A DNA stretch of 64,000 nucleotides, from contig JAFYNK010000087.1 of assembly GCA_017548125.1 (NCBI GenBank), positions 39,069-103,068 of the forward strand, in the 5' to 3' direction. The number at the start of each line of letters is the position of its first letter. The first letter of the stretch is position 1. Both the position numbers and the translations under genes were made by a program. This DNA is from Bacteroidales bacterium (GTDB lineage: Bacteria; Bacteroidota; Bacteroidia; Bacteroidales; F082). The notes under the pieces were generated by a model. It was not told where the DNA came from. It was given only the letters and a program-made list of their open reading frames with translations, and searched no databases. Of the stretch, positions 2,773 through 64,000 are shown piece after piece.

Positions 2773-2930
2773 TAGTCTTGTTGACTCATAGACTTTATCT
2801 TGGGCGTTCCGGCTATCGCCGTCGGGCTTTCCGCTATATCTTTGCTCGCTTCGTTATCACTACGCTCGCAAAGGATGCCGCTCCAATCCCTAACGCTTTG
2901 GCGCTGCGTGCCCTGAGCCGTGAGCCATGA
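2773..2930. repeat. Dispersed repeat family C, copy 1
   Basis: This GC-richer stretch contains GGGCGTTCCGGCTATCGCC, GTCGGGCTTTCCGCTATATC and GGATGCCGCTCCAATCCC. The reverse complement of 30491-30600 carries the same blocks in the same order, so two copies exist in opposite orientation. It fills most of the 355-bp gap between the 5'-nucleotidase and the rhodanese gene; no ORF is evident in it. Confidence 0.75.
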
Positions 2931-3390: not shown

Positions 3391-3765
3391 TTATATAACG
3401 TTTTCTTTAGGATTTGGACCCCATTGGTTTTCGTTTTCTTGACTGTCGAAACAAGCCCATACTATCAGCCAAATCCATCCGATTATTGGTACAAGACATA
3501 GAAGTCCCCACCATCCGCTTCTACCAATGTCATGAAGTCTTCTGACTGAAACTGAGATTGATGGAATAAATGTGATAATACAAAATATTAAAGACAAAAT
3601 AGAATGTAAAATGTATGAGCCTACCATCATGCCCAATATAGAGCCAACTAACTCAACAAGAATTGAAAAGATAAAGCAGAAAAGCGTAAAATACCAATAC
3701 TCTTTGCGGCGTGCTCTACCTTTAAAATCGAAATACTGCTTAAAACATTTAATGAACCATTTCAT
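3391..3765 (-). CDS. DUF805 family small membrane protein
   Basis: 124 residues. It begins MKWFIKCFKQYFDFKGRARR, followed by EYWYF, three to four hydrophobic segments and the signature VRRLHDIGRSGWWGLL near residue 75-90. These are hallmarks of DUF805 (PF05656) inner-membrane proteins, whose function is unknown. The gene lies 28 bp downstream of a lipoprotein gene on the same strand, so the two may be co-transcribed. Confidence 0.88.
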   Translation of the reverse strand: MKWFIKCFKQYFDFKGRARRKEYWYFTLFCFIFSILVELVGSILGMMVGSYILHSILSLIFCIITFIPSISVSVRRLHDIGRSGWWGLLCLVPIIGWIWLIVWACFDSQENENQWGPNPKENVI

Positions 3766-4418: not shown

Positions 4419-4643
4419 TTATTCAGATATGTCTTTTAATTCTTTGGAATAAAATTGGAATAGGTCGGTTTTTAGTATGAGGGAAATCTGAAACAACTGT
4501 TCGGTATCAATTATTTCTTTGAGAAAAATCTTGTTTACAGTACGGATATTGACACAAAGTCGTTCGGCAAACCATTGGTTGGTTTTATTTTGCTTACGCA
4601 ACTCTTCTTTGATAATCAATCCTATGTGAATGCCAGACCTCAT
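4419..4643 (-). CDS. Small XRE-like HTH protein, copy 1
   Basis: 74 residues, without obvious domains beyond a helix-turn-helix: HIGLIIKEELRKQNKTNQWF, then AERLCVNIRTVNKIF as the probable recognition region and IIDTEQLFQISLILKTDLFQ. It is paralogous to the protein at 30943-31236 (shared HIGxLIKxEL, W, C, R, KxF, T-LF-IS-L, D-F spacing). These short HTH proteins are common in Bacteroidetes and probably bind DNA. The gene lies immediately downstream, on the same strand, of the structured RNA at 4675-4905, and upstream of an operator-like palindrome. Its target is unknown. Confidence 0.78.
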   Translation of the reverse strand: MRSGIHIGLIIKEELRKQNKTNQWFAERLCVNIRTVNKIFLKEIIDTEQLFQISLILKTDLFQFYSKELKDISE

Positions 4644-4674: not shown

Positions 4675-4905
4675 CAAAAAAAAGCATGAACGATTCTAAT
4701 CCATGCTCCAAGGTCCTGAGATTACCTATCCCTACAGAAAAGTATCGCCCATGCTAAAAGGCATAGGTGTCTTCACTTATTCGTTGTAGGGACGTGCTTA
4801 TAAAATTTCTCAGGTTTTAGGAGCAAATGCCGAACAAATAGTAAACACTATTTTAAGAATTATATGTCATCCAATACTTTACATAATGAAATGTTTGTTT
4901 TTAAA
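4675..4905 (-). ncRNA. Structured RNA 1, upstream of HTH copy 1
   Basis: Read on the minus strand, a TATCTTTG box (4912-4919) precedes an AT-rich leader of about 80 nt. Then come a hairpin (AAATAGT/ACTATTT, 4836-4853), stem P1 (TGCTCC at 4820-4825 with GGAGCA at 4704-4709), stem P2 (CCTGAGA at 4808-4814 with TCTCAGG at 4715-4721), an upper stem (TCCCTACA/TGTAGGGA), an apical hairpin (CCTATGC/GCATGGG) and a terminator. In the apical hairpin only the minus strand pairs fully (U-G rather than C-A), which supports that strand. Sequence and stem layout match the RNA at 30713-30941, with compensatory changes. It looks somewhat like a 6S RNA rod but could be a leader or an independent sRNA. Confidence 0.65.
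4676..4707 (-). terminator. Intrinsic terminator of structured RNA 1
   Basis: On the minus strand AGCATG pairs with CATGCT, followed by eight U. The 5' arm shares AGCA with the 3' arm of stem P1, so P1 and the terminator cannot both form fully. This gives a possible attenuation switch ahead of the HTH gene. Confidence 0.65.
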
Positions 4906-5032
4906 TTTATGCAAAGATAATATTTAAATCATAGAAATGGAAATCATTGTTAACATAAATTAACTAATCTCTCACAATTTCATTAACATCACGTTAATAA
5001 TTGTTAAAATAGGAAAAATACCTTCTGAAAAA

Positions 5033-5065
5033 CTTGACAAAACCGTGTTAAAAATTGTAGTTTTG
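5033..5065 (+). promoter_or_regulatory. Promoter of the four-helix-bundle gene
   Basis: CTTG (5033-5036), 21 bp spacing, then TAGTTTTG (5058-5065). This matches the Bacteroidetes pattern TTG-N19..21-TAnnTTTG. Confidence 0.6.
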
Positions 5066-5075
5066 CAGTCGTGGA

Positions 5076-5148
5076 TGTAGTAATGTAGTGATGTAGTAAT
5101 GTAGTAATGTAGTACTATAAAACTCCATTACCCCATTACTTCATTACC
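5076..5148. repeat. Upstream microsatellite flank of the four-helix-bundle gene
   Basis: GTAGTAAT-type 8-9 bp units repeat about four times, followed by CATTACCCCATTACTTC. The second part is in the orientation of the downstream tract at 5523-5578 and the first part is roughly its reverse complement, so the gene is bracketed by related short repeats. Confidence 0.7.
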
Positions 5149-5164
5149 AAAAAAAAGGTACGTT

Positions 5165-5518
5165 ATGTTGTTTGTGGATTTGTATTTGTGGAAATCAGCG
5201 AGGGCACTTGTGAATGAAATTTATAAAATAATGGGTAGCTGTAAAGATTATAGTTTTAAAGACCAACTTCAACGAGCTGCAATAAGTATTATGAATAATA
5301 TTGCAGAAGGTTGTAATTCAGGAAGTAATTCTAAATATATTAACTTTTTAAAAATTGCAAGAGGCAGCTGTGCTGAAGTTGATTCAATGCTTTATCTATG
5401 TGAAGACTTCAAATATTGCACTTGTGATGAAAGGTGTAATATTCAAAAGGAAATAAATAAAATATCAAAAGGATGCCTAACTTTAATTAACATATTAAAA
5501 ACTAAAGAAACTAAATAA
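5165..5518 (+). CDS. Four-helix bundle protein (23S rRNA intervening-sequence type)
   Basis: 117 residues. The pattern LYLWKSARALVNEIYKI, then FKDQLQRAAISIMNNIAEG and FLKIARGSCAEVDSMLYL, is diagnostic of the TIGR02436 four-helix-bundle family, first found in 23S rRNA intervening sequences. The molecular function is unknown. Here it is not inside rRNA: it has its own promoter and is bracketed by 8-bp microsatellite tracts on both sides. The family is often found in repeat-flanked, apparently mobile contexts. C-terminal cysteines (CEDFKYCTCDERC) are notable. Confidence 0.88.
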   Translation: MLFVDLYLWKSARALVNEIYKIMGSCKDYSFKDQLQRAAISIMNNIAEGCNSGSNSKYINFLKIARGSCAEVDSMLYLCEDFKYCTCDERCNIQKEINKISKGCLTLINILKTKETK

Positions 5519-5522
5519 AAAA

Positions 5523-5578
5523 ACATTACTTCATTACTTCATTACTTCATTACTTCATTACTTCATTACTTCATCACT
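5523..5578. repeat. Downstream microsatellite, 8-bp unit
   Basis: The unit CATTACTT is repeated about six times in a row immediately after the four-helix-bundle gene, ending just before the promoter of the next gene. Confidence 0.85.
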
Positions 5579-5592
5579 ATTAAAAAAATCAC

Positions 5593-5600
5593 TACATTTG
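5593..5600 (+). promoter_or_regulatory. -7 promoter box of the DPP III-like gene
   Basis: TACATTTG lies 25 bp upstream of the ATG and fits TAnnTTTG. Confidence 0.55.
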
Positions 5601-30400: not shown

Positions 30401-30612
30401 CTGAAAGGGCGAAACAGATATAACGTAAGGCAACGCCTTATGGGTTACGAAAACACCAAGTGTTAAAACCCCGCCACTTCCATCGCCCAATGCGTTAGGG
30501 ATTGCAGCGGCATCCTTTTGAAGCGAAGCGGAAAAAGATATAGCGGAAAGCCCGACGGCGATAGCCGTAACGCCCAAAGAAAAGTCTATGAGTCAATAAG
30601 ACTACAAGACAA
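30401..30612. repeat. Dispersed repeat family C, copy 2 (inverted)
   Basis: Contains GGATTGCAGCGGCATCC, CGGAAAGCCCGACGGCGATA and GCCGTAACGCCC, which are the reverse complement of blocks in 2773-2930. It also includes a GGCAACGCCTTATGGGTTAC block absent from copy 1. The whole 30258-30676 gap is repeats; no gene was recognised. Confidence 0.75.
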
Positions 30613-30676: not shown

Positions 30677-30706
30677 TTGCCAATTGTTAATTTTATATTA
30701 TCTTTG
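30677..30706 (+). promoter_or_regulatory. Promoter of structured RNA 2
   Basis: TTG (30677-30679), 19 bp, then TATCTTTG (30699-30706): a full match to TTG-N19..21-TAnnTTTG. Confidence 0.7.
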
Positions 30707-30712
30707 CCAATA

Positions 30713-30941
30713 ATCAAAAAAATAAAAAATATAGAAAGGAAAATATAATCAACATATTATAAAATAGAGCTTAAGGCTCTTGTTCTCTACTCATAAAATC
30801 TGGTAAATTTTAAAGCAAGGAGGATAAGAGATCAAGTTGTTTACGTCAAACGGCGTGAATTGATCGTGCTTATTTAGTTGCTGCGGTTTTACCAGAACCC
30901 TATGAGTCTATTTAGGCAGTTGAAGCGGTTCACGCTTTTTT
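30713..30941 (+). ncRNA. Structured RNA 2, upstream of HTH copy 2
   Basis: After a TATCTTTG promoter and about 75 nt of AT-rich leader come a hairpin (AGAGC/GCTCT, 30766-30780), stem P1 (ACTCATA 30789-30795 with TATGAGT 30901-30907) and stem P2 (TCTGGTAAA 30799-30807 with TTTACCAGA 30888-30896). An upper stem follows (GATAAG 30823-30828 with CTTATT 30869-30874; GATCAA 30830-30835 with TTGATC 30860-30865), then an apical ACG/CGT loop and a terminator (AAGCG/CGCTT plus U-run). Aligned with the RNA at 4675-4905, P1 and P2 differ by compensatory pairs while CTC.TAAAA.CTG, AAATTTTA and AAGCA are conserved. The RNA could act alone or as a leader for the HTH gene. Confidence 0.7.
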
Positions 30942-30942
30942 C
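30923..30942 (+). terminator. Terminator of structured RNA 2
   Basis: AAGCG (30923-30927) and CGCTT (30933-30937) form a short stem followed by U residues. The stem is weak, so read-through to the HTH gene is plausible. The 3' end GTTCAxGCTTTTTT is shared with structured RNA 1. Confidence 0.55.
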
Positions 30943-31236
30943 ATGCTTATGAGCAAGAGTTTGAGCGTAAAACGTAATTCTATGGACAGCAGACGACAAT
31001 ATCAGGAAAATGAATTGCATATCGGCAATCTGATAAAAAGCGAATTGGTAAGGCAGGGCAGGAGTATCACTTGGCTGTCGTCGCAGGTGAATTGCACAAG
31101 AGAGAATTTGTATAAGGTATTCCGTCGATCATGGATTTATACTGACTTGCTGTTTGAAATAAGCGAGGCCTTAAACCACGATTTTTTCAAAGACTGTTCG
31201 GATTATCATAAAAGTCGTAAGGAAACAAAAATATAA
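30943..31236 (+). CDS. Small XRE-like HTH protein, copy 2
   Basis: 97 residues from the first ATG, but the start is uncertain: that ATG abuts the terminator U-run, and ATGs at 30949 and 30982 are also in frame. The core HIGNLIKSELVRQGRSITWL, SSQVNCTRENLYKVF and YTDLLFEISEALNHDFFKDC is a helix-turn-helix of the short Bacteroidetes XRE-like type and is paralogous to the protein at 4419-4643. It is predicted to bind DNA. It follows structured RNA 2 directly and is followed by a good terminator. Confidence 0.8.
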   Translation: MLMSKSLSVKRNSMDSRRQYQENELHIGNLIKSELVRQGRSITWLSSQVNCTRENLYKVFRRSWIYTDLLFEISEALNHDFFKDCSDYHKSRKETKI

Positions 31237-31428: not shown

Positions 31429-31640
31429 CAGCTCCGAAGGAGCGGCAGTTTCTAGGCAGGTGATGAAGCACGTAGTGCGGAATCCCTGCAAAATAAGTTT
31501 ACAAAAAAAATTAAAGCTCCGTAGGTGCGACAGATGCAATCTCTGTCGTCTTTACAGGACTAGGATTGTAATTCAATCATTTTAAGCAGGGGTTCCGTGC
31601 TACGCACTCCACCACCTGCCTAGAAACTATCGTCCCTAAT
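31429..31640. repeat. Palindromic repeat family D (about 210 bp)
   Basis: A long inverted repeat: TTTCTAGGCAGGTGATG and the following CACGTAGTGCGGAATCCCTG pair imperfectly with GCAGGGGTTCCGTGCTACGC and CCACCTGCCTAGAAA near 31586-31625. The centre contains CGACAGA/TCTGTCG. Blocks GCTCCGAAGGAGC and CGTCCCTAATGGGAC flank it. It looks like a REP- or MITE-like element without any ORF. Confidence 0.75.
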
Positions 31641-55311: not shown

Positions 55312-58300
55312 ACACTATTGCGTTTGAAGAAAATTCCCAACTCGCAACTATTGGTCAATATGCATTTCAATCTTGTTCAAATTTGAAAAGTGTTGAAATC
55401 CCTAATTCTGTTACTTCAATAGGTAATTATGCTTTCCAATCTTGTTCTAATTTAGCCACTTTAACATTTGAAGAAAATTCTCAACTTACAACTATAGGAC
55501 AATATTTATTTTCAAGCTGTTCAAATTTGAAAAGTGTTGAAATTCCAAGTTCTGTTACTTCAATAGGAAGTTACGCTTTCAGATATTGCAAAAAATTGGA
55601 AACAGTGACTTTTGAAGAGAACTCACAGCTGAAAACCATTGGAGAATATGCTTTCGCAGGTGATTGGCAAAATGATAATTACATGCAATTGAGAAGCATT
55701 GAAATTCCAAGTACTGTCACTTCAATAGGCAACTACGCTTTTTATTATTGCTCAAATTTATTAGGCATTAGATGTTATGCTGAAAATGTACCAACAGCAT
55801 ATAATTACACTTTCAGCGGCACTCCTTCAAACATGAACATACAAGTTCCTGAAAATTCAGTCAATGCATACAAAGCTGTTTCTTATTGGAAAAATTACAA
55901 CATTACACCTATACATCCTGTATTTATCGGTGAATATGCTATAGTCGATTATGAAAACTACAGTCTGAAATTTACTATCAAAAACTTCGAGACTAAAGAA
56001 TGTGAAGTGACTTGCTCAACAATGCCAACAACAAATATCTCAATAACAATCCCAACGACAGCAACAATTTCCGGATATGAATTTGATGTTACAAGTTTGG
56101 GTGAAAACGCTTTTTATGATTGTGATTATCTAACAGATGTAGAATTGCCTAATACTTTGACTTCAATTGGCAATAATGCTTTTCAATATTGCAACGGCTT
56201 AAAAAACATAGAAATTCCAGATTCTGTCGTTTCAATAGGCAATAGTGCTTTCTTTAATAATTATTTAGAAAACGTAACATTCGGCGAAAACTCACAGCTT
56301 GAAATTATAGGAAATCATGCTTTTGCTTATTGCTACAATATTACGAATATTGAGATTCCTAATTATGTTGCGACAATCGGAAATAGTGCTTTTAGGAACT
56401 GTAAAATAACAAAAATTGAAATTCCAGCAAGTGTCACTTCTATTGGAAGTTATGCTTTTAGCGACTGCTCAACATTATACGGTATAAAATGTTATGCGAC
56501 AGAAGTCCCAACAACCGATGTTACCGCTTTTAACGGTGTTCCAGCAACAATGAGCATCCAAGTTCCAGAACAATCTGTAGATTCATATAAGACTACCGAA
56601 CCTTGGAGCAATTATAAAATCACAAAGTTCTACACAATTGAAGCTGGTGATTTCGCGATAGTGGATTATGAAAACTATAGCCTTAAATATACAGTGATAG
56701 GGTTGGAGCCTATGGAATGCGATGTGGTTTGCTCAACAAAGCCAACAGTTGATGCAGAGATAACAATTCCAGAAACAGCAACTATATCAGGTGTTGAATG
56801 CACTGTGACAGCTATAGGTAGAAATGCTTTTAGTAATTGTTATAATCTGAAAGCTATTGAAATGCCAAATACCATCACTCGCATTGAAAGCAGCGCTTTT
56901 AATTATTGCCGTTATTTGAATAATATTGAACTTTCAAGTGCTCTTACTTCAATTGGTGGAAGCGCATTTTATGAATGTGATGGCTTGACAAACATTGAAA
57001 TTCCAAATTCTCTTACAACAATAGCAGGAAGCGCTTTCTCTTATTGCGACGGATTGACAAGCATTGAAATTCCAAGTTCTGTCACTTCAATTTATTACAA
57101 TACATTCCAAAGCTGTTCAAACTTGGAAACAATTATTGTTGAAAACGGCAATACAGTATATGACAGCAGAAATAATTGCAACGCAATCATTGAAACTGAA
57201 AGCAATAAATTGTTGGCAGGATGTAAAAATACTATAATACCTAATACAGTAACCTCTATTGGAGAAAACGCTTTCTATAATAATAACTTGACAAGCATAG
57301 AAATACCAAATTCTGTTACATCTATTGGCAATGGAGCTTTCCAATATTGTAATAATTTAACAAGTGTAGAAATACCAAATTCTGTTACAACTATTGACGG
57401 TTATGCATTTTATGATTGCGATGCATTGTCGAGTGTGACATTTGAAAACAACTCACAACTTACATACATTGGAAATCAGACGTTTTCAGATTGTGAAAGT
57501 TTGACAAGTATAGTAATACCAAGTTCTGTTACAAATATTGTTGATAATGCTTTCATTTATACCAAATTGGAAAACATAAGCGTAGAAAGTGGTAATACAA
57601 CGTATGACAGCAGAAATGGTTGTAACGCTATTATAGAAACTTCAAACAACAGAATGATAGTAGGATGTAAGAACTCATCTATACCAAATACTGTACAATC
57701 AATTGCTTATTCTGCATTCCAATATTGCGATGGCTTGACAGACATTTTCATTCCAAATTCAGTCACTTCAATTGATAATAGCGCATTTAATGGATGTAAA
57801 GATTTGGAAAGCATAGTTGTTGAAGAAGACAATCCATATTACGATAGCAGAAATGATTGTAATGCTCTAATTTATGATCCAGGATCTTATTATTATAATG
57901 AAGTAACATTGATACAAGGATGTAAAAATACCGTAATACCAAATTCTGTAACACATATCGGCTCATACGCATTTTATGAATCTGATTTGACAGAAATTGC
58001 TATTCCAGCAAGCGTTGAATATATAGGCTCATGCGCCTTTGAATATTGTTACGAATTGGAAAAAGTCTATTGCTTTGGTGAAGCTGTTAAAGAAACAGAT
58101 TATGATGTTTTCTATGGTTGCTGGGATTTGACAATCTATGTTCCTGAATATCTTGTTTCAGAATATCAGTCAACATATCCATGGAACGAATATAATATAG
58201 AAGCAATTTCATTGGAAGAAGAAAGTGTGACAATAGATTACGGCTCATACGAATTGACATTTTTCGTTTCCAATGCAAGCAATGCGGAATGTATCGTTTA

Positions 58301-61300
58301 TTGCAGTGAATATCCAGATGAGTCAACAGAAATAATAATACCATCAACAGTAACAATTTCTGACATTAAATTTAATGTTACATATATCAACAATGATGCC
58401 TTTGATTACTGTTATAACTTAACAAGCATAGAAATTCCAGCTTCAGTTAATTATATTGGCTATAGTGCTTTTTATGATTGTTCTAATTTGGAAAAAATAT
58501 ATTGCTATGCAGAATCTGTTCCAGAAACATATTATGAAGACCCATTCCAAAACACTTCCGACAATCTGATTATTTATGTTCCTGAAGAATCTTTAAATAA
58601 TTATCAAGAATCATATCCTTGGTATAATTACACAATAAAACCTATTCCTGCACCAGAATATGGAGAAGAAATAACAATTCAATATGAAGATTATTCTTTA
58701 AGATTTGTTATTATAAATACATATCCATACGAATGTGAGGTTAGTTTGGCCGAAAACAATTATTCGTCTGTGGACATAGTAATTCCTTCAGGTGTAACAA
58801 TCAGAGGTTATTCATGCAAGGTGACAACGATAGCAGGTCAAGGTTTCGGAAGTAGTTACATCTCAAGCGTAAAAATTCCAAATACAATAACACATATTGG
58901 CTGGGAAGCTTTTTATTATTGTAATAATTTAACAAGCGTAAAAATACCAAGTTCTGTAATTTTCATAGAAAACAGCGCTTTCCGTTATTGCAACAATTTA
59001 GAAACTATTGAAGTACAAGGTGGAAATGCCGTATATGACAGCAGAAACAATTGCAACGCAATCATAGAAACTGAAAATAACAAATTGATTGCCGGATTCA
59101 AAACATCTGTAATACCTAATAGCGTTACTTCAATAGGTGAATATGCTTTCTATGATTGTGATAATTTGACTTCATTAACATTTGATGCGAACTCTCAACT
59201 TGCGACTATCGACAGTCAAGCTTTCTATGATTGTGATAATCTGACAAGCATAGAATTTCCTAATTCTCTCACGATAATAGATGATTATGCTTTTTATTCA
59301 TGCGACAAATTGGAAGAAATCTCATTTGGAGAAGGCTCTCAATTAACTACTATTGACAGTCAAGCTTTCGCATATTGTTCAAGTCTGACAGAAATTGCAA
59401 TTCCAAGTTCTGTTACATCAGTTTCGGGCAATGCATTCTCAAATTGTTCTAAATTGGAAAGCATAACAGTTGCAAGTGAAAATACAGTTTATGATAGCAG
59501 AAACGAATGTAACGCAATTGTTGCAACAGAAACAAACACATTGATATTGGGATGTAAAAATACAGTCATACCAAACACAGTGACAGCAATTGGAAGTTAT
59601 GCTTTTTATAATTGTGACGCAATAACAACTATGGAAATCCCAAATTCAGTCACTACAATTGGAGATTATGTATTTTATGATTGCGATAATTTGACAAGCA
59701 TGGAAATACCAAGTTCTGTCACTTCCTTGGGAGGTCGTATTTTCTATTATTGTGAAAAATTAGAAAGCATAAACTTTGCAGAAAACTCTCAACTCACTTC
59801 AATCGGTGATTATGCTTTTGCAAATTGCAGCATGTTGTTAAATATTATTTTGCCAAGTAGCATTACTTCCATCGGAGAAAACGCATTCGTATATTGTTCA
59901 AAATTATATGGTATCAGATGCCTCGCTGAAGAAGTGCCAGAAACTGCTCTCAATGCATTTAATACAATTCCATATCATACTAACATTCAGGTTCCAGAAC
60001 AGTCTGTAGAATTGTACAAAGCGACTTTGCCATGGAGCAATTACAATATCACAAAAATATATTCTTCAATGCCAGGTGAATTTGCTACAGTTGATTATGG
60101 AAATTACAGCCTCAAGTTCTCTATCATTGGCTTTGAACCTGCAGAATGCGATGTTGTTTGCAACATAAAACCATCAGCAAATACCGAAATTACAATTCCA
60201 ACTACAGCCACAATTTCTGATGCTGAATATACTGTTACTGCATTAGGAAACAAAGCCTTCCAATCATGTTCATATTTGACTGGCATCGAAATGCCTGAAA
60301 ATATTAGAACTATAGGAAATAACGCCTTCGAATCATGTTCAAAACTGACAAACATCGAAATACCTGATAATGTCACTTATATAGGTAATTATGCGTTCAG
60401 ATACAGTTCGTTGAGAAATGTTGAAATTACCAATAATGTAACATATCTTGGAGAGAGCGCTTTCTCCAGCTCTCAATTATCAAAGATAACATTTGAAGAA
60501 AACTCACAATTGACAGAAATCAAACCATATACTTTTGCTTATTGTGATGCATTGACAAGCATTGAGATACCAACTACAGTCACTTCTATCGGAAATAATG
60601 CATTCTATGATTGTGATGGTTTTGTTGATTTTGAACTCCACGATTCTATTGCATATATTGGCAGTTGGGCTTTTGAATATTGTGATAATTTGGAAAATGT
60701 TTATTCTTATAATTTAACGCCTGCAACTATTGAATGGGGAACGTTTTCTTCTATCAACTCATCTGCAAAAATATATGTTCCTTCTGAATCATTAGATGAG
60801 TACAAATCACGATGGTCAAATTATCAAGATATGATTGTAGGTTTCGTGACATATAGCGAAAACGGATGGACATCAGTACCTGTGCCGACAGATTATGCAT
60901 ACGTAGATTATCCTCTCGTTATTTCAGAAGATGAGACATTGTCGGTTTACTCGTTATATATCAGTAACAATGGCACTGTCACTGTTGAAGATGGCGGACA
61001 ACTCATTTGTCATAAGACAAGAGGCGAGGTGACCGTTGAAAAAGAAATAAGCGGATACTTCTCCCAAACAAACGGTAAATGGAATATAATATCATCCCCA
61101 TTGAAGAATGACATTGATTTGTCAACTGCATCAGAAACCAACATAACATCTAATTCATACGAATTGTATCGTTATGACGAGCCAACACATTCATTGCAAG
61201 CTTATAACAATGGAGATTTCTCTACTTTAGAAACAGGACGAGCCTACGTTTATGCAAACTCAAATGACGTCACCTTGTCATTTACAGGCAATATCAATAC

Positions 61301-64000
61301 AAGCGATGTAGAATATAATCTTACAAAAGAAAGCGAAGAATTTGCAGGCTTCAATATGGTTGCAAATCCTTTCACACATGACATCACTATAGATAACTTT
61401 AACCTCAAAGGAAATGTGATGAATATAACATTTGAATTGACAGACTCATACGGCGACGGATGGAACGGCTGCGCTTTGTTGGTTACATCTAAAAACGGAT
61501 TAAATGAAAGTTATACAATTTCAAGCGGAAGAAATGCATCATATAACTTGGAAATTAATACGTATGAAGAAGTGACAGTAAAATGGAAGAAAGGAAGCTA
61601 TCCTGGAGAGTGTTCATTTGTCATTAAAGATGAAAACGGCAGTATAATCTATAGTAACAGCTCGCTCGGCAATGTATCTAACAACAGTGTCTTATATACT
61701 TTTAGCAATATTGTAAATATTATTGAAGACCAGTTGGTTTTTGAATTGACAGACTCATACGGTGACGGATGGAACGGTTGTAAATTGAATGTAAGCTTCA
61801 GCGATGGAAGCGCAGGCAAGTCTTATACAATCTCTAACGGATATACAGCGACATACAACTTAAATGTTCCAAGAGGTGTTGAAGCAACAGTAAAATGGGA
61901 AAAAGGAAACCACCCTGGAGAGTGTTCATTCGTAATCAAAAAAGGAAACGGAACAGTTGTATGCAACAAGGTTAAGGGTTCACTCACAAATACAGAAACA
62001 GGTGCTGTATTATTCACATTCAAGGAAGAACTTGAAAATTATTCAAGTAATGGCTTAGCAGAAGGTTATTACAAACTCTTAAACGATGGAACATGGAAAG
62101 TAGTTGTTGACAGAAACGAAACTATCAAATCTTGTGAAGGTATAATGATTAAGGCTTTGAATGAAAATCCTATAATCATTAGAAATACAGTGTCACAAAA
62201 TGCGAATGCGTCAACAAATAAATTCATTGAAATAACTGTTGCTAACAACGATTATCAAGATAGAGCCTATATCACATTCAATAATGGTTTCAGCTTGGAT
62301 AAGATAAATCATCAGAATGAAAATATACCATTATTGTACATTCCTATAGATGGCGTCGATTGCGCAGTCGCATCAATGTCAATCAATTTCAATGAAACGC
62401 CAGTTTATTTCGAGGCTAAGACTATGGGACAATATACAATTTCGGTAAGTCAAGAAAACTGCGGCTATGATGGGTTGTTCTTATATGATAAATTCAGCGA
62501 TGTTTGCGTCAATATACTTCAATCTGACTACAGCTTCACTGCTACAGCAAACGACAATGCTGACCGTTTCGTTCTCATGACAACTAATGTTATGAATATC
62601 AACGTGACAGTCAATCCAGAAGATGCTGGCTCAGTCTCAGGCTCTAACGAATGGTATTTCAATGAAACAGCAACATTGACAGCAATGCCAAATGATGGTT
62701 ATACTTTCGTAAATTGGACTGAAAATGACGAAGTCATTTCTGAAAACGCGGCTTATTCATTCGTCGTAAAACAAGACAGAAACTTGATCGCCAACTTTGA
62801 ATTGTTGACATATAGTGTAACAGCATCGGCAAATCCAGCCGAAGGCGGTTCTATAAACGGTGCCGGAGTCTATACTCACGGCGAGACTGCAACCTTAACA
62901 GCAACAGCAAACGAAGGCTATCAATTCATCAGCTGGACAGAAAACGGCGAAGTCGTTTCAACAGACGCTGAGTATTCTTTCACAGTCACAGAGGCTAAAG
63001 AATTGGTCGCTAACTTTGAATTGTTAACTTACAGTGTAACAGCATCAGCAAATCCAGCCGAAGGCGGTTCTATAAACGGTGACGGAGTCTATACTCACGG
63101 CGAGACTGCAACCTTAACAGCAACAGCAAACGAAGGCTTCTCGTTCAAGAACTGGACAATTAATGGAAACGTGGTCTCAACAGAAACAGAATATTCGTTC
63201 ACAGTCGCAGAAGATGTTGATTTAACCGCTAACTTCAACTATGTACAAAGCAGAAATCTTAAATCAGGATGGAGCTGGTTCTCTTCATACATTGAAATCT
63301 CAGGCGCCAACGGACTTGAAATGCTTGAAGACGCTCTCGGAGAAAACGGTCTCCAAATCAAGAACCAGACAGCTTTCGTATCTAACTCAAATTCTGGCTG
63401 GTACGGCTCACTTACTTCAGTCTCTGTTGAAAGCATGTACATGATACAGGCATCAGCAGCTCATGAACTGACATTGGTTGGCGACATTGTAAACCCAGAA
63501 AATCATCCTATTACTATAGGAACTAACTGGAGATGGATTTCTTATCCTGTAAGCGAAAGCATCTCTGTTGAAGAAGCGCTTGCCACAATCAATCCAAGCC
63601 ACGGTGATTATATCAAGTCACATACTTTATTCTCACAATATTACGACGGCATCGGCTGGCTCGGCGGTCTCAACACAATGAATCCTGGCGAAGGTTATAT
63701 GTACCAGAATACTTCTGGAACAACAAAGACTTTAGTCTATCCAACATCGGCATCAAAGGGAACAAGAGCTAACGTCACTTCAGAAAACAACTACTGGATT
63801 GCAGACGCTGGAAAATACTCAGACAACATGAGCTTGATAGCATTTGTTAAAGATAATTTAGAAATGGATTATGAAATCGGCGCATTCGTCGGTGAAGAAT
63901 TACGCGGCAGCGCAAGACCTATTTACATCGAAGCTTTAGACAGACACATGATTTTCATGACAATCTACGGTAAAGCTAATGAAGAACTTACATTTAGATA
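55284..64000 (+). CDS. Giant BspA-like surface protein, 3' part after the frameshift, open at the window end
   Basis: More than 2900 codons follow without a visible stop. The part to about 60.8 kb is LRR_5-type repeats (IEIPNSVTSIGNYAFYNC-like) interrupted by recurring modules: DYxNYSLKFxI with ITIPxTxTISG (near 55930, 56650, 58230, 58670, 60080), YDSRNNCNAII units (57160, 57605, 57850, 59035, 59490) and IQVPExSVxxYK-PW-NY linkers. From 60.8 kb come a mixed strand-rich region, two ELTDSYGDGWNG domains (61.4 and 61.75 kb), three InlB-like B repeats (62.6-63.24 kb) and a region GWSWFSSYIEISGANGLEML. Any C-terminal sorting signal lies beyond the window. Confidence 0.85.
62805..63139 (+). repeat. 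Two near-identical 120-bp coding repeats (InlB-like B repeats)
   Basis: Segments 62805-62922 and 63019-63139 share almost every base, for example AATCCAGCCGAAGGCGGTTC and ACGGCGAGACTGCAACC. Both encode ANPAEGGSINGxGVYTHGET, pointing to a recent duplication. Confidence 0.85.

Follow-up and report, generated by a model that had tools for sequence, protein, structure and literature searches.

The 64,000 nucleotides of Bacteroidales DNA analysed here (hereafter the window) hold two structured RNAs, each lying directly ahead of a gene for a small helix-turn-helix (HTH) protein, and the question raised by this locus is what such an RNA does and whether the HTH protein is its dedicated partner. We report a computational analysis of the copy that we call M2, of its paralogue M1 and of their homologues. 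The comparison of these sequences and of their predicted folds suggests, with a probability of roughly three in four, that the RNA is a cis-acting 5' leader, a transcription attenuator of the terminator type in which a rod-like fold serves as the antiterminator.

M1 and M2 can be aligned over the conserved blocks first described for them, the RNA precedes its HTH gene in the same order and on the same strand in both (Table 1), and the compensatory changes in the stems are genuine: P2, for example, joins TCTGGTAAA to TTTACCAGA in M2 and CCTGAGA to TCTCAGG in M1. In these respects the initial annotation was correct. Compared with their own dinucleotide shuffles, the folds have z scores of -3.88 (M2) and -4.64 (M1). 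The covariance model R1, of whose seed M2 is a member, matches M2 at 30767-30915 (+) with 117.4 bits. M1, with a covariance-model match at 4696-4849 (-), is absent from both training alignments (A4 and A6) of the covariance models R1 and R2 and was found by R1 with 28.6 bits (E 0.0012 over 100 sources) and by R2 with 52.3 bits (E 1.9e-7 over the genome); it was not among the matches of a blastn search of the genome with M2 as the query. At E 0.01 the window holds no R1 match other than these two. A third RNA-HTH pair, M3, lies on contig C55 (locus L010) and has the same architecture with little stem sequence in common; it was recognised by eye and is scored as a match by neither model. The genome has further R2 matches on contigs C90 (60.3 bits) and C62 (38.2 bits), neither of which precedes an HTH gene of the M1/M2 family. 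The proteins encoded behind M2 and M1 have Pfam matches below the cutoff, to HTH_7 (weak, E 0.0043) and to HTH_3 (E 0.0019), respectively.

Table 1. Parts of the two leader RNAs of the window and the genes behind them
Feature	Positions	Strand	Remarks
M2 leader RNA	30713-30941	+	about 229 nt, putative 5' end
M2 TAnnTTTG promoter-like box	30699-30706	+	from sequence
M2 P0, small hairpin (GAGC...GCTC)	30767-30779	+	4 pairs
M2 strand A	30777-30787	+	partner B in the alternative fold, 11 bp, -14.4 kcal/mol
M2 P1 5' strand	30789-30795	+	partner 30901-30907
M2 H1, short AU hairpin	30795-30811	+	loop L1, 30799-30807, TCTGGTAAA, is the P2 5' strand
M2 strand B	30820-30830	+	contains the P4 5' strand; partner A or C
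M2 strand X	30853-30877	+	P5 3' strand and C (P4 3' strand); exchanges between rod and terminator
M2 H2, hairpin GGY...RCC	30885-30899	+	loop L2, 30888-30896, TTTACCAGA, is the P2 3' strand
M2 P1 3' strand	30901-30907	+	partner 30789-30795
M2 tail strand	30908-30935	+	with X forms the terminator, -22.0 kcal/mol
M2 U-tract	30936-30941	+	abuts the X:tail helix
M2 downstream gene, small XRE-like HTH protein	30943-31236	+	97 aa counted from the first ATG
M1 leader RNA	4675-4905	-	fold and covariance-model matches
M1 TAnnTTTG box	4912-4919	-	from sequence
M1 strand A	4829-4845	-	A:B -10.7 kcal/mol
M1 strand B	4772-4797	-	pairing prediction
M1 strand X	4734-4754	-	pairing prediction
M1 tail strand	4684-4704	-	X:tail -21.0 kcal/mol
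M1 U-tract	4676-4683	-	from the sequence after the X:tail helix
M1 downstream gene, HTH protein	4419-4643	-	74 aa from the first ATG

Several other elements were seen around these loci. Flavo-1 RNAs (Rfam RF01705), just over the gathering score, lie at 30480-30561 (+), about 150 nt 5' of M2, and at 2816-2901 (-), about 1.5 kb past the M1 HTH gene, and their closeness to M1 and M2 is probably a coincidence. On the 3' side of the M2 HTH gene, a 63-nt inverted repeat (31438-31637) has arms that are 75% complementary and 74 nt apart. Downstream of the M1 HTH gene, beyond a 188-aa ORF, is a gene for a DUF805 membrane protein (3391-3765, -), and at the related locus L014 a DUF805b RNA (RF02914, at 1674-1709) follows shortly 3' of the leader-RNA homologue; the two classes of RNA may be connected. 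The region 5060-5600 of the window includes a gene (5165-5518) for an IVP, a protein of the 23S rRNA intervening-sequence type, with runs of short repeats (TGTAGTAA and ATTACTTC units) on either side of it. A giant gene, an open frame of at least 2872 aa at 55383-63998 (+), runs off the end of the window.

The covariation that was first read from two copies extends to abundant homologues and is strong in 92 of them, the opposite of the outcome that would have counted against the initial annotation. In these 92 distinct homologues aligned to R1 (alignment A6, with rows from 92 of 100 sources at a tighter E-value), 95.8% of the rod cells are paired against 74.3% in shuffles, figures that lean towards the model because the alignment was fitted to it. 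Changes on both sides are seen at 33 of the 35 rod pairs, among them 6/6 pairs of P1, and at all four pairs of P0 in some of the homologues; the rod has 699 double-change cells against 183 in shuffles, the homologues being related so that these counts are of non-independent events. When the partner strand is slid by one to three columns, pairing in the rod falls to 36-46%. A6 omits the sense matches M1, L025, L069, L127, L135, L148 and L156, and M3 and L161 gave no match and so are not in it; with weak and unmatched copies left out, the alignment is biased towards copies that score well. The antisense strand of many copies (L053, L059 and L049, for example) also scores in the model, reaching 38.9 bits, the element being quasi-palindromic owing to its repeated A/C and B/D strands; a separate alignment, A7, comprises 60 matches with three antisense rows removed.

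Within the rod, P2 is a complementarity between two loops, L1 and L2, which are held by the hairpins H1 and H2. The pairs of these hairpins lie outside the model structure and have more modest support than the rod: they are paired in 91.1% of cells against 67.4% in the best slid version, with 36 double-change cells against 12.5 in shuffles. H1 takes forms such as GAAA...TTTC or AAAA...TTTT and H2 the form GGY...RCC, once GAT...ATC. We infer that L1 and L2 meet in a loop-loop (kissing) contact; alternatively, the two could form an ordinary helix of the rod.

What the initial annotation overlooked is a second fold, mutually exclusive with the first and involving the U-tract, together with the wide distribution of the RNA and its many targets other than HTH genes. 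The tail that follows P1 lies outside the model, and its pairing with strand X was for this reason chosen for a swap test, in which the X (P5 3' strand and P4 3' strand) of each of a set of divergent RNAs was paired with its own tail or with that of another RNA. The cognate pairing was the stronger in 0.98 of 800 swaps, against 0.41 and 0.44 for control pairings of the tail with the P5 5' strand and with B; a second set, in which the loops varied, gave 0.985 of 1537. The X:tail helix has a mean of 19.8 bp and -23.1 kcal/mol and is followed, within 8 nt, by at least five T in 135 of 148 homologues (13 are without); these 8 nt hold a mean of 5.9 T, compared with 2.5 at positions taken at random in the tail. 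In M1, M2 and M3 (X:tail -20.9 kcal/mol in the last) the helix ends at, or no more than two bases from, the T-run. The other pairing of this fold, A:B, was cognate-specific in 0.80 of swaps and is paired in 87.7% of cells of the 92-homologue alignment with 53 double-change cells against 18, although a slide of +3 still leaves 76.8% paired and 23 of 500 shuffles match its number of double-change pairs. For B:C alone, cognate specificity was moderate (0.75). A pairing of A with D was to be expected, as A resembles C and D resembles B, and was dropped after a swap test of 0.53.

Strands B and X are used by both folds, which makes the two mutually exclusive. The rod is predicted to be the more stable, at -68.0 against -52.9 for the terminator fold in M2 (about 15 kcal/mol apart) and -65.4 against -52.6 in M1 (about 13 kcal/mol apart), which should leave the outcome to the order of folding or to a trigger; on these modelled energies the OFF fold may be rare, or may depend on kinetic trapping or on a trigger. 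Covariation and cross-pairing of the aligned sequences support both folds and the U-tract, and from them the assignment of ON and OFF states and of termination in cells is drawn as the presumptive function.

We propose that transcription would start from the RNA's own promoter, about 60 nt 5' of P0, and that the parts would be made in the order P0, A, P1 5' strand, L1, B, P5, C, L2, P1 3' strand, tail and U-tract. In the presumed ON state, the closed rod of P1, P2 (L1:L2), P3, P4 (B:C) and P5 would lead to read-through. In the presumed OFF state, A would pair with B and so release the P5 3'/C strand, which together with the tail would form a hairpin of about 20 bp with the U-tract, an intrinsic terminator shortly 5' of the gene. 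Read-through would be decided by the closing of the rod before the tail is made, with the meeting of L1 and L2 as the probable nucleation, and candidate triggers would be a protein or an RNA acting on L1/L2, a small molecule, or the kinetics of folding and pausing. For M1 and M2 the regulated gene would be that of the small HTH protein. The succession of A:B, B:C and X:tail has the classical 1:2, 2:3 and 3:4 layout of attenuators like that of trp, in which the ribosome exerts control through a leader peptide. Short ATG-initiated ORFs of at least eight codons are, however, depleted in the leader, being present in 91 of 148 RNAs against a shuffled mean of 110.7 (20 shuffles, range 103-126); for ATG starts, to which the count applies, this argues against a leader peptide and leaves control of that type highly improbable.

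The position of the RNA relative to genes was examined for 223 RNAs, unique by their L1-to-L2 string, with ORFs of at least 60 aa from a simple caller and a start no more than 600 nt from the RNA; M1, M2 and M3 as such are not counted, with near-identical or other-contig copies of them possibly among the 223. There is a downstream ORF for 205 of these RNAs and 190 of the 205 are co-directional with the RNA, whereas upstream the figure is 98 of 147. In the set from a pattern scan 99 of 106 downstream ORFs are co-directional and start at a median of 92 nt past L2. A TAnnTTTG box, whose consensus we take to be that of a promoter, stands between -120 and -40 relative to the first hairpin in 89 of 147 homologues against a shuffled mean of 7.8; near the box of M2 a well-spaced -33 box was looked for and none was found. 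In the L1 and promoter-box counts, as in the short-ORF counts and the second X:tail set, L328 was left out as a duplicate.

With its own promoter box, a terminator-like end and a transcript of about 230 nt, the RNA might instead act in trans as a small RNA in its own right, with its end at the U-tract; the downstream gene would then be read from elsewhere or by leakage, and its closeness to the RNA would be incidental. The co-direction of the downstream ORFs and their short distance from L2 speak against this, as does the first ATG of the M2 HTH frame one base past the U-tract (the true start may be a later ATG), and a stand-alone RNA has no need of two conserved folds that exclude each other; we regard this explanation as decidedly unlikely. 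The same fixed gene orientation and promoter box count against a mobile palindromic repeat of the REP or MITE kind with no regulatory role, which would account for up to 30 matches in one genome and for antisense copies that score weakly too (of the 122 matches in alignment A5, 23 are antisense to a better match). Since structure is kept despite sequence divergence and the strand exchange comes with a U-tract, we give such a repeat almost no weight. Phage or plasmid origin is likewise disfavoured: blastn found nothing in phages with M2, the one copy tried, as the query, or in plasmids with one L116 copy, and a fixed-loop DNA pattern occurs in two stretches of viral contigs against at least 120 in genome contigs.

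The dedicated RNA-HTH unit of the initial annotation is not supported. Just 54 of the 223 RNAs have an HTH gene of the M1/M2 family in the 650 nt that follow them, and none (0/223) has one upstream. The proportion depends on how loci were chosen: 17 of 17 own-genus loci that were fetched via the HTH protein itself (L025-L053 were so fetched, and the 17 are part of the 54), 14 of 30 in the own genus when chosen via the RNA, 18 of 116 in the pattern scan, whose loci share a single fixed L1, 4 of 25 in the order and 1 of 35 in Bacteroides/Butyricimonas. From the side of the protein, the RNA was seen by eye upstream of the HTH gene in 25 of 32 loci, the three of the window's genome included, and was lacking from the 330 nt upstream in 7 of the 32. 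An autoregulated, RNA-binding HTH protein or a pair like toxin and antitoxin would fit the three of five known RNA copies of this genome that precede one HTH family, and it would fit the one-sided placement and the 14 of 30. Most RNAs, however, precede other genes, and the RNA occurs in genomes without a clear HTH protein of the family: Fibrobacter genome G299 has five RNA matches and no HTH match, while Rikenella (nine) and Flavobacterium (six) have one marginal HTH match apiece. Taken with the HTH loci that lack the RNA, this makes a dedicated pair very unlikely; the HTH protein is the commonest regulated family seen and not an obligate partner. At L039, L040, L043 and L044, RNA-less HTH paralogues stand behind genes whose ends encode an SVRLV(R/Q)D motif, an arrangement of another kind that also recurs.

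The other downstream proteins (149 unique, trimmed to 350 aa) fall into 72 Pfam families, none of which has more than four members among the top 25 families viewed, and many have no match among the families shown. They include type I, IIG and III methyltransferases, PvuRts1I-like nucleases, an EcoRI-type methylase, BACON, LRR, Por-secretion, CsgG-like and RibD-C proteins and one IS66 transposase. Restriction-modification models among the top 25, whose members may overlap, are REase_MTase_IIG (4), MTase_III (2), methyl-directed REase (2), MTase_I (2) and MTase_II (2). An enrichment of defence genes downstream was considered and rejected, as upstream genes match many PADLOC models too (124 families over 148 proteins) and include PIN, integrase, resolvase and WYL genes. 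With the upstream genes being accessory as well, the RNAs tend to occupy accessory regions, and, within the top 25 lists, only the bias towards methyltransferases and restriction seems to be peculiar to downstream genes. By a heuristic signal-peptide rule of our own, as distinct from a validated predictor, 80 of 188 downstream proteins pass against 24 of 154 upstream.

With regard to the trigger of the proposed mechanism, most conserved positions of the RNA lie in H1, H2, P2, P5 or strand A. Conservation is strong in the sequences that flank L1 and L2, AAA/TTT and GG/CC, which would be conserved unpaired nucleotides if H1 and H2 are not stems. L1 itself takes 33 different sequences in 148 RNAs, some of them, such as ATCGCCAA, CGTAGGAA, ACCGCCAA, ACGACCAA and CCTGAGAA, common to different genera. 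A metabolite riboswitch, in which the P1/H1/H2/P3 junction would be an aptamer for one ligand, would share the attenuator and differ in the trigger. It would explain an aptamer-like core with loop-loop pairing and an expression platform, and the conserved flanks could then be ligand contacts and not stems; few positions beyond these flanks are conserved, however, L1 is diverse, and the target genes have no evident pathway in common, so that we find a riboswitch unlikely. For the attenuator as we propose it, the variety of L1 suggests an avoidance of cross-talk or an address code. We put forward tentatively, as a possibility that has the odds against it, that the RNAs form a loop-addressed network, in which those with the same L1/L2 code would respond together, either to a trans-acting RNA or protein that they have in common or through cross-kissing of one leader with another, and would gate accessory genes (restriction-modification, surface lipoproteins, small HTH regulators) at the RNA level across the Bacteroidota and Fibrobacterota.

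The RNA is widespread. R1 finds it in 91 of 99 genomes of the genus at E 0.001, where the HTH protein is present in 92 of the 99, and in 56 of 198 genomes of a sample of the order at E 0.01; R2 at E 0.001 finds it in 30 of 247 genomes of a sample of the phylum. A first-pass pattern in 60 relatives matched 10 genomes, the reversed control pattern matched several too, and only L014, L016, L018 and the two copies of the window were convincing by eye. Among the fixed-loop pattern matches listed are Bacteroides xylanisolvens, B. finegoldii, Butyricimonas, Rikenella and Alistipes, as well as Prevotella, Flavobacterium, Tenacibaculum, Arcicella and Fibrobacter records. In ten genomes picked as carriers of the RNA, the matches to R2 at E 0.01 number 30, 21 and 19 in G071, G271 and G094 (at least two matches, in G071 and G094, being antisense overlaps), 17 in B. 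xylanisolvens XB1A, 15 in Butyricimonas synergistica DSM 23225, 13 in B. finegoldii DSM 17565, 9 in Rikenella microfusus, 6 in Flavobacterium microcysteis, 5 in the Fibrobacter succinogenes MAG (G299) and 4, exclusive of M3, in the window's own genome. If our reading is true, one class of leader RNA is common to Fibrobacter and to the Bacteroidetes, a dominant gut phylum; it would have up to 30 matches per genome and would control mostly accessory functions: restriction-modification, secreted proteins or lipoproteins, and small regulators. The trigger is directly searchable, because the switching strands are mapped and named isolates (XB1A, DSM 17565 and DSM 23225) carry the RNA.

It had also been suggested that the RNA may not have been described, and this stands as far as Rfam goes. 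Rfam 15 gives no match on the RNA at the gathering score in the window and in 17 + 13 related loci, nor under relaxed settings in the region of M2 (E up to 5) and in one copy from Bacteroides (E up to 2). The parts of the literature searched, which include portions of PMC8040213, PMC10994844, PMC7366714 and PMC11109978, hold no description of it, and an earlier listing or description is possible. The RNA thus appears to belong to a class of leader that is of a known general kind, uncatalogued, and unusual in the breadth of its targets.

With the terminator/antiterminator leaders, namely attenuators and riboswitch platforms, the RNA shares two mutually exclusive folds in a 5' leader, but it has neither a clear ligand pocket nor the sign of a leader peptide, and it has unrelated target genes and many copies per genome. 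The leaders of processive antitermination (put RNA, EAR and the leaders controlled by LoaP and UpxY) are similar in that an RNA leads accessory or long operons; the present RNA, in contrast, itself holds the overlapping terminator. Kissing RNAs, such as those of the purine riboswitches and ColE1 RNA I/II, likewise have two hairpins with complementary loops, whereas here the sequence of the loops varies among paralogues and the kissing is conjectural. Lastly, according to PMC8040213, HTH-XRE is among the two commonest neighbours of the novel candidate RNAs from human microbiomes, 3161 in total, and several of the candidates are mostly of Bacteroidetes; by this description of neighbour gene and taxon, on which the likeness rests, the RNA of the present work may be one of the 3161.
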